The notes beneath the pieces were generated by a model, which was given only the letters and a program-made list of their open reading frames with translations, had not been told where the DNA came from and made no database searches. The translations under genes were made by a program, and so were the position numbers. Positions 41,596 to 49,698 of a stretch of 64,000 nucleotides of DNA are shown here, piece by piece. Position 1 is the stretch's first letter. The number at the start of each line of letters is the position of its first letter. This DNA is from Diphasiastrum complanatum (Eukaryota > Streptophyta > Lycopodiopsida > Lycopodiales > Lycopodiaceae), in contig CM055107.1 in the NCBI GenBank assembly GCA_029204225.1, positions 17,270,809 through 17,334,808 on the forward strand, in the 5' to 3' direction.

Positions 41596-41684
41596 CTCTC
41601 TCTCTCTCTCTCTCTCTCTCTCTCTCTCTCTCTCTCTCTCTCTCTCTCTCTCTCTCTCTCTCTCTCTCTCTCTCTCTCTCTCTC
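41596..41684. repeat. (CT)n tract at left boundary of the Penelope-like element
   Basis: About 89 bp of CT. Confidence 0.95.
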
Positions 41685-43890
41685 ACTCTCACATGGGCTC
41701 TATTACGTACATATATTACTCTATTTGCTTCGCGAACCTCTATAGAATGCAAATGTCGCATACTAACTCTATTTACTAGTCGGGGCGTAAAAAAATGCCT
41801 TGCTATGATAAAAGACCCCACATAATAGAAAAAGTTTTTATAAAAAAAATGGTGGGAAGATTGTGAATCTTTCAATGGCCAGGATTTGTGCACATTATGG
41901 ACAATTATCTAACGGTGGACAACAATTTGCACTTAGTACACCTAAGTGTCCTCTGGCTCTATAAAGATGAAAATCACACCATCCTATTCACTTTCCCTCA
42001 TGCTCTCTCTCTCTCTCTCTCTCTCTCTCTCTCTCTCTCTCTCTCTCTCTCTCTCTCTCTCTCTCTCTCTCTCTCTCTCTCTCTCTCTCTCTCTCTCTCT
42101 CTCTCTCTCTCTCTCTCCCTCCTTCGTGCTTGTGATTGCTAGTGGAAAAGCATTGGTGCTATAATACTACACACAAAGGTGAGTTGGGTTCAAGTTATGA
42201 TAACTCGTTGATAAGAGAAGGTGTAAGTGAAACCTTATGATGAATGCTTACGGTTTACCATGTATATCTTTGTGTAATAGCAGACAATCAACCTGTATAC
42301 TATCATTGAATACTCTCACGATCAAACGAAGTTCCGAAGAACAAAAGTGGGCAAATTTTTAGGTAAGCTATCAACTCTTTTGGCTTGTAATAAGCGCTGG
42401 ACAACAAGCTTACTGCTCATGATCAGTATCATACGTTATACGGAATGGATGGCCACTGGTCGACGCTCTCACTGAGGAGGATTTGAGCGCTGGCCAGTGC
42501 TGAAATATTACTCATAAATGTGTTTATGAAATGCGATTTGTTGTAGCTCGTGGTATGAGCCATATTGCATGCATTTTTCATCAAGCTATGCTACTGATAA
42601 TGCGATTTGAGCGCTGTCCTTTCAACGGTTTCAGGGAGATATCATAAGCCATAGCATAAACATGGTTGTTTAGAATGCTTGCATAAAACTCGGTTGACTG
42701 TAACCCTTCACGTAGTATTGCTTTTGCTAATGTTCTCTTGATGTGATAGTAACTATGAGGATATCCACCTGTGATAACCTATGGGATAGTATCTGTGAGT
42801 ATGGGAAAGTTAGCAGTACAAAGTATGCTTTGTATGATTACATGAGTTTGAGATAAATGGTTATGATCGTTGACAATCTGTATGCGGTAGGGAATGCACA
42901 CAACTCAAAAGTCATGGCACTAATTGTCAGAATAGCAAGCAATTATTGGTGATGACATTATGAAGCTTTGAAAAGTACATTATAGGTAACCCTATACTTT
43001 TAGCACGTAGGTGATTTGAGTAAGCAGCTGAAGATGGATAGTTTGCACAAGATTACTTTAACTCACATTTAGGTACGATGCAATATGGAATATCACCGAT
43101 ACGGTGAGCAGCTTTACTCATTATTATTCATGCATTGGTCATGATACTATGAATTTTGCTTGTAATGGGTTTTAGATACTATATCTGATAACTGATAGTC
43201 ATGCATGCATATTGATTAACATATGCATGAGTTATTGAAGGAATTGTTTTCTCGGCATCTTAAGTCCAGTTATTATAAGTTAAGTCACGTACTCTTACAA
43301 GACTTGACTATGGTACACTTGTATGGCATGGAATTGCCCAAGTAATTCTGTGCTTGGATTTCTGGATAAAGTGATATGGGGAATCCATGGGGCTAATATA
43401 GCATGGAGGTGCTCTAGTACCTAGCACTGTGACCAACGTCAAGTCACTGTCCATTTGTGTAGTGAAAAATAGTTGCTTACATATAGAATGCACTTGTGAA
43501 CCTAATACGTTCTTTTTGCTCCTTTATTGATTAGTATGGCGTCTGCCCTGATACGACTTCGTTAAAAGGGCAGAACTTATCGCTAAACTATGAAATGAAT
43601 GATTGGGAAGATTGGACGTACTTGTTTTTAATGCAACCTAGCTGATAAAGTAGTGAATCTTGTTTTGGACATGAATAACAACTGATGCTCATCTATGACA
43701 CCTGTCTTCCTCACGCGACTAACTTGTGTGGTTTTGTTGTGTGGGATGGTGGCAGGTAACAGCTGGGTTTTCGCTTTATGGTACTCTATACTGTTATACT
43801 TTATACAGCTGTATTTTTTACCTGTTATGCTATAAATTGAAGGGTTCAAAGGGTTTGGTCTTGACTTGTCAAGAGGGACTATGTGAAATC
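41685..43890 (+). repeat. Left pLTR of the Penelope-like element
   Basis: About 2.2 kb, from 'acatgggctct' to 'atgtgaaatc'. It contains a second long (CT)n tract at 42002-42116, which the right copy has only in shortened form near 47790-47820. No gene is supported inside. By analogy with other PLEs it may hold the promoter. Confidence 0.8.
42002..42116. repeat. (CT)n tract inside the left pLTR
   Basis: About 115 bp of CT, reduced to an imperfect CT stretch in the right pLTR. Confidence 0.95.
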
Positions 43891-44031
43891 TTGTTACTCT
43901 CTCTCTAGCATCTCTGATGCCAACTCGGCTACCCTTTGGCCGGGGTAGCACCAAACCTTTACCTTTACTTGTATTTTATGGCTAACAAGGTCTGTTGTAT
44001 GATGTAGTCCACATGATGATTTCATGATGCG

Positions 44032-47378: not shown

Positions 47379-47474
47379 TCTCTCTCTCTCTCTCTCTCTC
47401 TCTCTCTCTCTCTCTCTCTCTCTCTCTCTCTCTCTCTCTCTCTCTCTCTCTCTCTCTCTCTCTCTCTCTCTCTC
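47379..47474. repeat. (CT)n tract at the start of the right pLTR
   Basis: About 96 bp of CT between the coding region and the right pLTR. Confidence 0.95.
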
Positions 47475-49609
47475 ATGGGCTCTGTTACATACATATATCA
47501 CTCTATTTGCTTCGCAAACCTCTATAGAATGCAAGTGTCGCGTACTAACCCTATTTACCAGTCGGGGCGTAAAAAAAATGCCTTGCTATGATAAAAGACC
47601 CCACATGATAAAAAAAAGTTTTTTTTTAAAAAAATGGTGGGAAAATTGTGAATCTTTCAATGGCCAGGATCTGTGCACATTATGGACAATTAATCTAACG
47701 GTGGGCAACAATTTGCACTTAGTACACCTAAGTGTCCTCTGGCTCTATAAAGAGGAAAATCACACAACCCTATTCACTTTCCCTCATGCTGTCCTGCTCT
47801 CTCTCTTTCTCTCCTTGCTCTCATGGTGCTCAATAATACTGGGATTGTGATCGAAGAGAATGCTCATGATTGCTAGTGGAAAAGCGTGCTATAATACTGC
47901 ACACAAAGGTGAGTTTGGTTCAAGTTATGATAACTCGCTGATAAGGGAAGGTGTAAGTGAAACCTTATGATGAATGCTTACGGTTTACCATGTATATCTT
48001 TGTGTAATAACAGACAATTAACCTGTATACTATCATTGAATACTCTCATGATCAAACGATGTTCCGAAGAACAAAAGTGGGCAAATTTTTAGGTATACTA
48101 TCAACTCTTTTGGCTTGTAATAAGCATTGGACAACAAGCTTACTGTTCATGATCAATATCATACGTTATATGGAATGGATGGCCGCTGGTCAACGCCCCA
48201 GCGCTGAAATATTACTCATAAATGTGTTCATGAAATGCGATTTGTTGTAGCTCATGGTTTGAGCCATATTGCATGCATTTTTCATCAAGCTATGCTACTG
48301 ACAATGCGATTTGAGCACTGTCCTTTCAATGGTTTCAGGGAGATATCATAAGCCATAGCATAAACATGGTTGTTTAGAATGCTCGCATAAAACTCGGTTG
48401 ACTGTAACCCTTCACGTAGTATTGCTTTTGCTAATGTTCTCTTGATGTGATAGTAACTATGAGGATATCCACCTGTGATAACCTATGGGATAGTATCTGT
48501 GAGTATGGGAAAGTTAGCAGTACCAAGTATGCTTTGTATGACTATATGAGCTTGAGATAAATGGTTATGATCGTTGACAATCTGTATGTGATGGGGAATG
48601 CACACAACCCAAAAGTCACGTCAGTAGTTTTCAGAAAAGCAAGCAATTATTGGTGATGACACTATGAAGCTTTGAAAAGTACATTACAGGTAACCCTATA
48701 CTTTCGGTTTGAATGCTTTTAGCACGTAGGTGATTTGAGTAAGCAGCTGAAGATGGATAGTTTGCACGAGATTACTTCAACTCACATTCAAGTACGATGC
48801 AGTATGGAATATCACTGATACGGTGAGCAACTTTACTCATTATTATTCATGCATCGGTCATGATACTATAAATCTTGCTTGTAATGGGTTTCGGATACTA
48901 TCTCTGATAACTGATAGTCATGCATGCGTATTGATTAACATATGCATGAGTTATTGAAGGAATTGTTTTCTCGGCATCTTAAGTCCAGTTATTATAAGTT
49001 AAGTCACGTACTCTTACAAGACTCGACTATGGTACACTTGAATGGCATGGAATTGCCCAAGTAGTTCGGTGCTTGGATTCTTGGATAAAGTGATACGGGG
49101 AATCCATGGGGCTAGTATAGCACGGAGGTGCTCTAGTACCTAGCACTGTGACCAATGTCAAGTCACTGTCAATCTGTGTAGTGAAAAATAGTTGCTTACA
49201 TATAGAATGCACTTGTGAACCTAATACGTTCTTTTTGCTCCTTTACTGATCAGTATGGCGTCTGCCCTGATACGGCTTCATTAAAAGGGCATAATGTATT
49301 GCTAAACTATGAAATGAACGGTTGGAAAGATTGGACGTACTTGTTTTTAATGCAACCTAGCTGATAAAGTAGTGAATCTTGTTTCGGACATAAATAACAA
49401 CTGATGCTCAACTATGATACATGTCTTCCTCACGCGACTAACTTGTGTGGTTTTGTTGTGTGGTAACAGCTGGGTGTCTTAGAACTTGCTTCGCTTTATG
49501 GTACTCTGTACAATTATACTTTATACAGCTGTATTTTTTTACCGGTTATGCTATAAATTGAAGGGCTCAAAGGGTTTGGTCTTGACTTGTCAAGAGGGAC
49601 TATGTGAAA
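47475..49609 (+). repeat. Right pLTR of the Penelope-like element
   Basis: About 2.1 kb, collinear with the left pLTR ('tgaatgcttacggtttaccat' at both 42241 and 47971), with scattered substitutions and small deletions (for example about 40 bp missing near 48190). It ends at 'atgtgaaatc' directly before (CT)n. Confidence 0.8.
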
Positions 49610-49698
49610 TCTCTCTCTCTCTCTCTCTCTCTCTCTCTCTCTCTCTCTCTCTCTCTCTCTCTCTCTCTCTCTCTCTCTCTCTCTCTCTCTCTCTCTCT
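49610..49698. repeat. (CT)n tract at the right boundary of the Penelope-like element
   Basis: About 89 bp of CT directly after the right pLTR. Confidence 0.95.

Follow-up and report, generated by a model that had tools for sequence, protein, structure and literature searches.

Introduction

Penelope-like elements (PLEs) that lack an endonuclease (EN) are believed to be linked to chromosome ends and to use exposed DNA ends as primers (PMC3846280), and the repeats in Terminon RNAs are complementary to telomeric overhangs (PMC6431247). Published listings assign EN-lacking, or EN(-), PLEs to Selaginella, Pinus, and Picea (PMC9033089) and Chlamys elements to Ectocarpus (PMC12477816). In a Poseidon element from Anolis (PAc), reverse transcription begins inside the RNA past the pseudo-long terminal repeat (pLTR) and leaves a "tail" (PMC11167929). 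In this study, we describe an element at positions 41596 to 49698 of a 64,000-nucleotide stretch from the lycophyte Diphasiastrum complanatum (GCA_029204225.1, contig CM055107.1, positions 17,270,809 to 17,334,808 of the forward strand), hereafter the window. With fair confidence, we read it as one decayed copy of a Penelope-like retroelement that is present in many copies, homes to (CT)n microsatellites, and starts its cDNA at an internal CU motif.

The element resembles EN-deficient PLEs (Athena, Coprina, and the EN(-) elements of Selaginella, Pinus, and Picea) in having two open reading frames (ORFs) and a reverse transcriptase (RT) ORF without GIY-YIG, whereas it differs from them in its CT microsatellite rather than telomeric repeats, its interior copies, its long pLTRs, and the lack of a detectable hammerhead in the window copy. 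For the Chlamys/Naiad clade, Craig and colleagues reportedly described in 2021 a CxC motif before the RT, a microsatellite bias, the absence of a hammerhead, and pLTRs; an insertion in the fingers domain is a further trait of the clade. The first four traits are shared by the present element, which is unlike that clade in its separate ORF1 and in having no recognisable GIY-YIG. PAc offers the same pLTR-ORF-pLTR arrangement in cis, an internal start beyond the pLTR, and the tail, but it has a C-terminal GIY-YIG and a hammerhead and its start is not homologous to its AT-rich target (PMC11167929), while the start motif of the window element matches its CT target. Among the titles returned by a literature search of partial coverage, none reports CT-targeting PLEs in lycophytes or microsatellite-targeting PLEs. 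A first-pass annotation, made from the sequence alone, had called PLEs sparsely described in land plants, which is fair, although EN(-) PLEs were already listed for the three genera above (PMC9033089).

Results

The pLTR-body-pLTR layout recurs at other loci

The window element comprises two direct repeats of ~2.2 kb, the left pLTR (41692..43891) and the right pLTR (47474..49612), around a broken two-ORF body, and all of its features lie on the plus strand. BLAST aligned the repeats as two pairs (41597-42037 with 47379-47822 at 92.6% identity, and 42127-43906 with 47861-49628 at 91.3%), and the left and right pLTRs are separated by a Kimura two-parameter (K2P) distance of 0.057 over 1,920 aligned sites, CT tracts excluded. 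Alignment and reading by eye set the bounds of the pLTR unit as CATGGGCTC...GTGAAATCT, and the junctions with flank and body agree with them. Tandem Repeats Finder placed (CT)n arrays at 41596-41690, 42003-42121, 47379-47474, and 49610-49698. Three of these correspond to an outer left tract with CT on the sense strand (41596..41690), a middle tract at the junction of body and right pLTR (47379..47473), and an outer right tract (49613..49698), which is followed by the flank TTGGTGGAATGAG. Thus, the direct repeats that the first-pass annotation had proposed are borne out, while the bounds it gave, 41596 and 49698, are the edges of (CT)n tracts rather than of the unique repeats; the (CT)n bounding the repeats, in our view the most telling feature of the locus, had been overlooked.

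The window's own genome (1.74 Gb) was searched with two queries: a 1,139-base RT query, for which 40 of 1,925 first-look candidates were scored (78 matches), and a pLTR query, for which 40 of 3,309 were. From these, 20 loci of ≤10 kb each, six pLTR loci, and 27 pLTR ends (from the 40 scored pLTR matches) were compared. Several pairs are duplicates or share flanks (L013/L014, L024/L025, L034/L035, L050/L053, L061/L064, and L056/L057) and L020 and L021 share body coordinates; the junction counts given below are of rows, not of unique insertions. The pLTR-body-pLTR layout recurs at other loci and the same repeats flank other copies, which speaks against independent segmental duplications. Within a locus, the left and right pLTRs differ by a K2P of 0.037 to 0.083 (10 loci, including the near-identical duplicates L013 and L014, and L030 with only 295 sites) and are closer to each other than pLTRs are across most loci, the window repeats being mostly 67 to 93% identical to those elsewhere. 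The body end lies upstream of the left pLTR in L013, L014, and L018, and the body start follows the right pLTR in L011; because body pieces adjoin pLTRs in this way, there are partial tandem copies, which, like pLTRs, are a trait of PLEs. One locus, L033, consists of a solo pLTR whose ends are the same and whose CT tracts are short (17 on the left, 11 on the right). Long direct repeats on both sides could also mean that a segmental duplication or an LTR retrotransposon has been misread as a PLE, but the repeats have no TG start or CA end, neither the window pieces nor one read-through copy per ORF matched integrase, protease, or RNase H, and the layout is the same at many loci and includes the tandem arrangements. 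We regard this explanation as extremely improbable.

CT tracts lie at nearly all outer ends examined

At many loci the order is (CT)n-pLTR-body-(CT)n-pLTR-(CT)n. Every copy with a located body end passes from the body into CT and then into the pLTR start, so the middle CT tract belongs to the element. The outer left ends follow a CT tract of 16 to 146 nt in all 13 rows, with differing DNA upstream; the tract abuts the pLTR in 12 of them, and in the window CACTCTCA separates it from CATGGG. At the outer right, 25 of 27 ends lie in a CT tract, comprising all 13 of a first set and 12 of the 14 outer ends in a second set (the remaining 13 of its 27 pLTR ends continue into the body, 11 as called by script and L047 and L052 by eye). 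The tracts at outer ends measure 10 to 275 nt and always read CT on the sense strand. For comparison, among 20,000 random window positions, 0.24% have CTCTCTCT and 2.6% have GAGAGAGA nearby on the sense strand. Most right ends run through pLTR GTGAAATCT into the opening letters of the body (43892-43906), TGTTA or TGTTT followed by CTCTCTCT, and leave the body there. In the first set, 10 of 13 rows have TGTTA, TGTTT, or TCTTA as the tail before the tract; in the second, 12 rows end in CT, and 11 of these carry TGTTA or TGTTT. An insertion end beyond the pLTR of this kind is a PLE trait. The corresponding sequence after the left pLTR of the window is TTGTTACTCTCTCTCT (43892..43906), with the CU motif that, judging from the right-end junctions, we propose as the cDNA start.

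The tracts could instead be made by the element, with the RT recopying the CU motif and adding (GA)n in the manner of telomerase. The median length is indeed 115 for right-end tracts (21 values) against 68 for the remaining CT/GA arrays of the sequence examined (21 arrays), and the right-end tracts of at least 20 nt (n = 18) exceed the other arrays with a one-sided p of 0.003, using hand-typed value lists from which some duplicates had been removed. However, the left-end tracts are not longer (p = 0.31), L016 has a tract without an element, the right tracts of L013, L014, L015, L033, and L068 are as short as 10 to 15 nt, and slippage after insertion would give the same lengths. Overall, we find it quite improbable that the element made the tracts.

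Target sites and chromosomal position

About 1.3 kb from its own copy of the element, L016 holds an uninterrupted CT tract without an element, followed by sequence like the window's right flank (81% identity over 425 columns). This flank is a dispersed repeat, found at positions 560-1140 of L016, at L048, which ends in it, and at 49699-50300 of the window. From the L016 site and the L048 flank, the window element was probably inserted into a CT tract inside this repeat, and no target duplication is visible outside CT. L036 is preceded by ACATTAATAAAATCTTTC(TC)n, which resembles the (TC)n-ended 3' ends of the long interspersed nuclear elements (LINEs) in the window. The right flanks of L013, L014, L056, and L057 all read ATGGATGCTCCTTYGTTCAG, suggesting either a favoured host repeat or a segmental duplication. 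The LINE pieces just mentioned (window 9474-25341, minus strand; matches to RVT_1, endonuclease-like, and zf-RVT families) constitute a second CT-associated retroelement family here. At the 3' end they pass into (TC)n, and truncated pieces can begin at (TC)n, in both of which they recall the present element, but they are RVT_1-positive, of unrelated layout, and without pLTRs.

Long contigs carry 32 of the 40 scored loci, 31 of which lie >1 Mb from a contig end; the exception is on C23 at ~0.28 Mb. The window element and the 20 copies retrieved contain no telomeric repeats of ≥2 units, and TTTAGGG arrays do exist in this genome (1,385 forward and 551 reverse, with 0 for a control). These positions bear upon the explanation that the element is a classical EN-deficient PLE of the Athena/Coprina kind that exploits chance double-strand breaks, the CT tracts being the genome's break sites. 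The failure to find an endonuclease and the presence of two ORFs, as for EN-lacking PLEs (PMC6431247), agree with it, and breaks as primers are a published idea (PMC3846280). Nevertheless, such elements sit mostly at chromosome ends (PMC3846280) whereas 31 of 32 copies here are interior, the copies carry none of the telomeric repeats sought, and random breaks do not predict either the fixed CT strand or right ends at the element's own CU motif. For these reasons, we judge this explanation unlikely.

Coding capacity and reverse transcriptase

Shared reading frames were delimited by stops common to most of nine copies with nearly full bodies. ORF1 extends from alignment column 116 to a stop at column 1526 and ORF2 from column 1525 to a stop at column 3592, both stops being common to all nine. 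In the window, the ORF1 region (44008..45341; ~470 aa in the shared frame) is broken, with a longest open piece at 44020-44922, and its stop overlaps the ORF2 ATG in TGATG (45339..45343), while the ORF2 region (45341..47311; ~690 aa), which encodes the RT, is broken as well. The N-terminal ~300 residues that the first-pass annotation had described as of unknown fold are the first part of ORF1, which the shared frames open to ~470 aa. Among eight copies (28 pairs; L013 was dropped as a duplicate of L014), the ratio of nonsynonymous to synonymous change (dN/dS) is 0.49 for ORF1 and 0.41 for ORF2; shifting the reading of these columns one base downstream gives 0.61 and 0.74, respectively. This contrast is a modest signal consistent with past coding.

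The window does contain the RT motif pieces that had been reported for it, VDKA..N, GIPMG.AC.PTWCN, and DKRRELPF, distributed among three frames. Across the copies, ORF2 carries STDIAKCYENIPL, GIPMG, YIDD, and a CTC ahead of GHVVSMD, which we take to be the PLE motifs A, B, and C and the CxC, respectively. The window reads YIDN where all eight other aligned copies read YIDD, and relative to them it has stops, frameshifts, and two deletions; since no intact frame is left, the window copy is non-autonomous. Matches to described families were weak: ORF2 of L022 matched Pfam RVT_1 across motifs B-C at an E-value of 1.3e-4, under the curated cut-off, and a group II intron RT model of NCBIfam gave E = 0.02 in two of three ORF2 copies. 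No family was identified by Pfam in ten single window pieces or their joined read, ORF1 of L028 had no Pfam match at E ≤ 10, searches of the PDB returned no match of note, and single-sequence AlphaFold models were of low confidence (predicted local distance difference test scores of 32.5 and 36.6). Searches for relatives in the viral_contigs collection, by protein, and in genome_contigs gave no lead. Degenerate GIPMG patterns matched two loci in viral_contigs, both taken to be chance matches, L001 being a phage protein. The first-pass call of a Penelope-like element therefore stands as far as the pLTR-body-pLTR retroelement layout is concerned, while the putative assignment of the RT itself to PLEs draws upon motifs together with the architecture.

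Endonuclease and ribozyme searches

Pfam (E ≤ 10) detected no GIY-YIG in the ten window pieces, nor in the read-throughs of other copies (one for ORF1, one for ORF2), a search that a very diverged nuclease could escape. This includes the N-terminal GIY-YIG position characteristic of Chlamys/Naiad, and ORF2 ends ~50 aa past the RT block with no C-terminal GIY-YIG. The Pfam model works in this genome, as all 150 scored candidates of 471 found were above its cut-off, and comparison by eye placed all of those 150 more than ~17 kb away from the scored element loci, 40 in number. The earlier observation that no GIY-YIG is visible around the RT extends to the read-throughs of other copies. As for the hammerhead ribozyme, the window copy was examined, and none was found in the window at Rfam gathering scores, in 41400-49900 at E ≤ 5, or in the element with a simple descriptor.

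These results bear most directly upon a PLE with an N-terminal endonuclease (the Chlamys/Naiad type, or a close derivative), in which an endonuclease too diverged for Pfam, in ORF1 or the start of ORF2, would open the microsatellite and the RT would then act like that of other PLEs. The CTC upstream of the RT, the absence of a detected hammerhead, and the microsatellite targets would all be accommodated, but no GIY-YIG was seen in either ORF at E ≤ 10 with a family that is so readily detected elsewhere in the genome, and ORF1 is a frame separate from the RT, unlike a fused N-terminal domain. We consider this somewhat unlikely, although it is the strongest of the alternatives.

The genome holds at least 150 GIY-YIG domains, dozens of which cluster on C8 between 0.64 and 3.2 Mb (2.5 Mb). 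GIY-YIG-bearing PLEs were considered as the source of these many matches and rejected, as no PLE-like RT was present at the five places examined: L040, L041, and L043 adjoin helicase-like frames, presumably Helitron-like, L039 consists of fragments of the same region, and L042 has only GIY-YIG frames within 3.4 kb.

Other sequence features of the element and the window

Within the pLTR, a TATA-like box, TATAAAGA (41960..41967 in the window), lies ~270 bp from the start in 24 of 32 pLTR starts, and AAGGTGAG lies ~440 bp in for 26 of 32. The latter supplies the donor AAAG|GTGAGT of a candidate leader intron (42179..43755), and an acceptor-like GGCAG|GT is found close to the pLTR end in many copies. 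Together these sites suggest a promoter and a leader intron, both putative. Just below the TATA-like box, the left pLTR also contains a CT tract (42003..42121, from Tandem Repeats Finder and alignment), whose counterpart in the right pLTR is short and imperfect only. An apparent intron loss in the left pLTR of L030 was considered as a product of splicing and rejected, since its break points match neither donor nor acceptor. A hairpin across the ORF2 stop (47295..47347) forms in all 20 copies folded; a two-sided change in L028 preserves a pair, and changes in several copies break one.

Elsewhere in the window, positions 2700-3428 hold a perfect tandem duplication of 364 bp (two copies, 100%). 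The match of positions 25593-25687 to Rfam IsrR, a cyanobacterial antisense RNA (79 bits over 95 bases), is probably fortuitous and due to a long hairpin. WWE-like and PARP-like frames at 52619-53750 (E = 0.027 and 0.005, below cut-offs) are perhaps the sole host gene or pseudogene here.

Discussion

Judging from the features described above, the element has the architecture of a PLE and appears to work like one. Its ends in CT repeats are probably explained by a CU stretch in the element RNA that pairs with such repeats. In the mechanism we propose, transcription would begin from the TATA-like box in the pLTR, and the template RNA would run past the end of the right pLTR to the CU motif. The (GA)n 3' end of a nicked or broken microsatellite would then pair with this motif and prime cDNA synthesis internally, at least 5 nt past the pLTR. 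Copying would proceed through the pLTR, the middle CT tract, the body, and the left pLTR, and the far cDNA end would be joined within CT, which would leave CT at the ends of whole and truncated elements and of solo pLTRs alike. The strand opening may come from breaks at CT tracts, from a partner's endonuclease, or from an unrecognised endonuclease of the element's own.

Several observations weigh against a CT-homing PLE of this kind. L050 and L053, one junction seen twice, account for the 2 of 27 outer right ends without a CT tract; the window as well as L024/L025 pass from the pLTR end straight into CT without TGTTA, and L034/L035 end ~160 bp further inside the body. L016 resembles the window's left flank for only ~25 bp beside the tract, and the remainder of that flank has no match. 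Four of the nine copies share a stop inside ORF1 (column 995), and the PLE nature of the RT, argued from motifs and architecture, is putative. Furthermore, the Anolis PLE provides a precedent in which the start site is not homologous to the target (PMC11167929). Even so, we favour the CT-homing reading at the fair confidence given above.

A more speculative version, which we think rather improbable, is that the element is an EN-less "microsatellite telomerase" that captures (GA)n 3' ends via a built-in CU template and may extend them by repeated copying. Such an element would insert whole or truncated units or solo pLTRs and would both consume and lengthen CT sites, which (TC)n-ended LINEs would also supply.

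If the CT-homing reading is true, the element would stand midway between PLEs that attach to telomeres and retroelements with specific target sites: it has no recognisable endonuclease, its copies are interior, and its RNA would carry a copy of the target beside the cDNA start. A single RNA motif and a single simple target would then suffice to test how a PLE RT chooses its primer, and some of the genome's CT repeat load would be accounted for.

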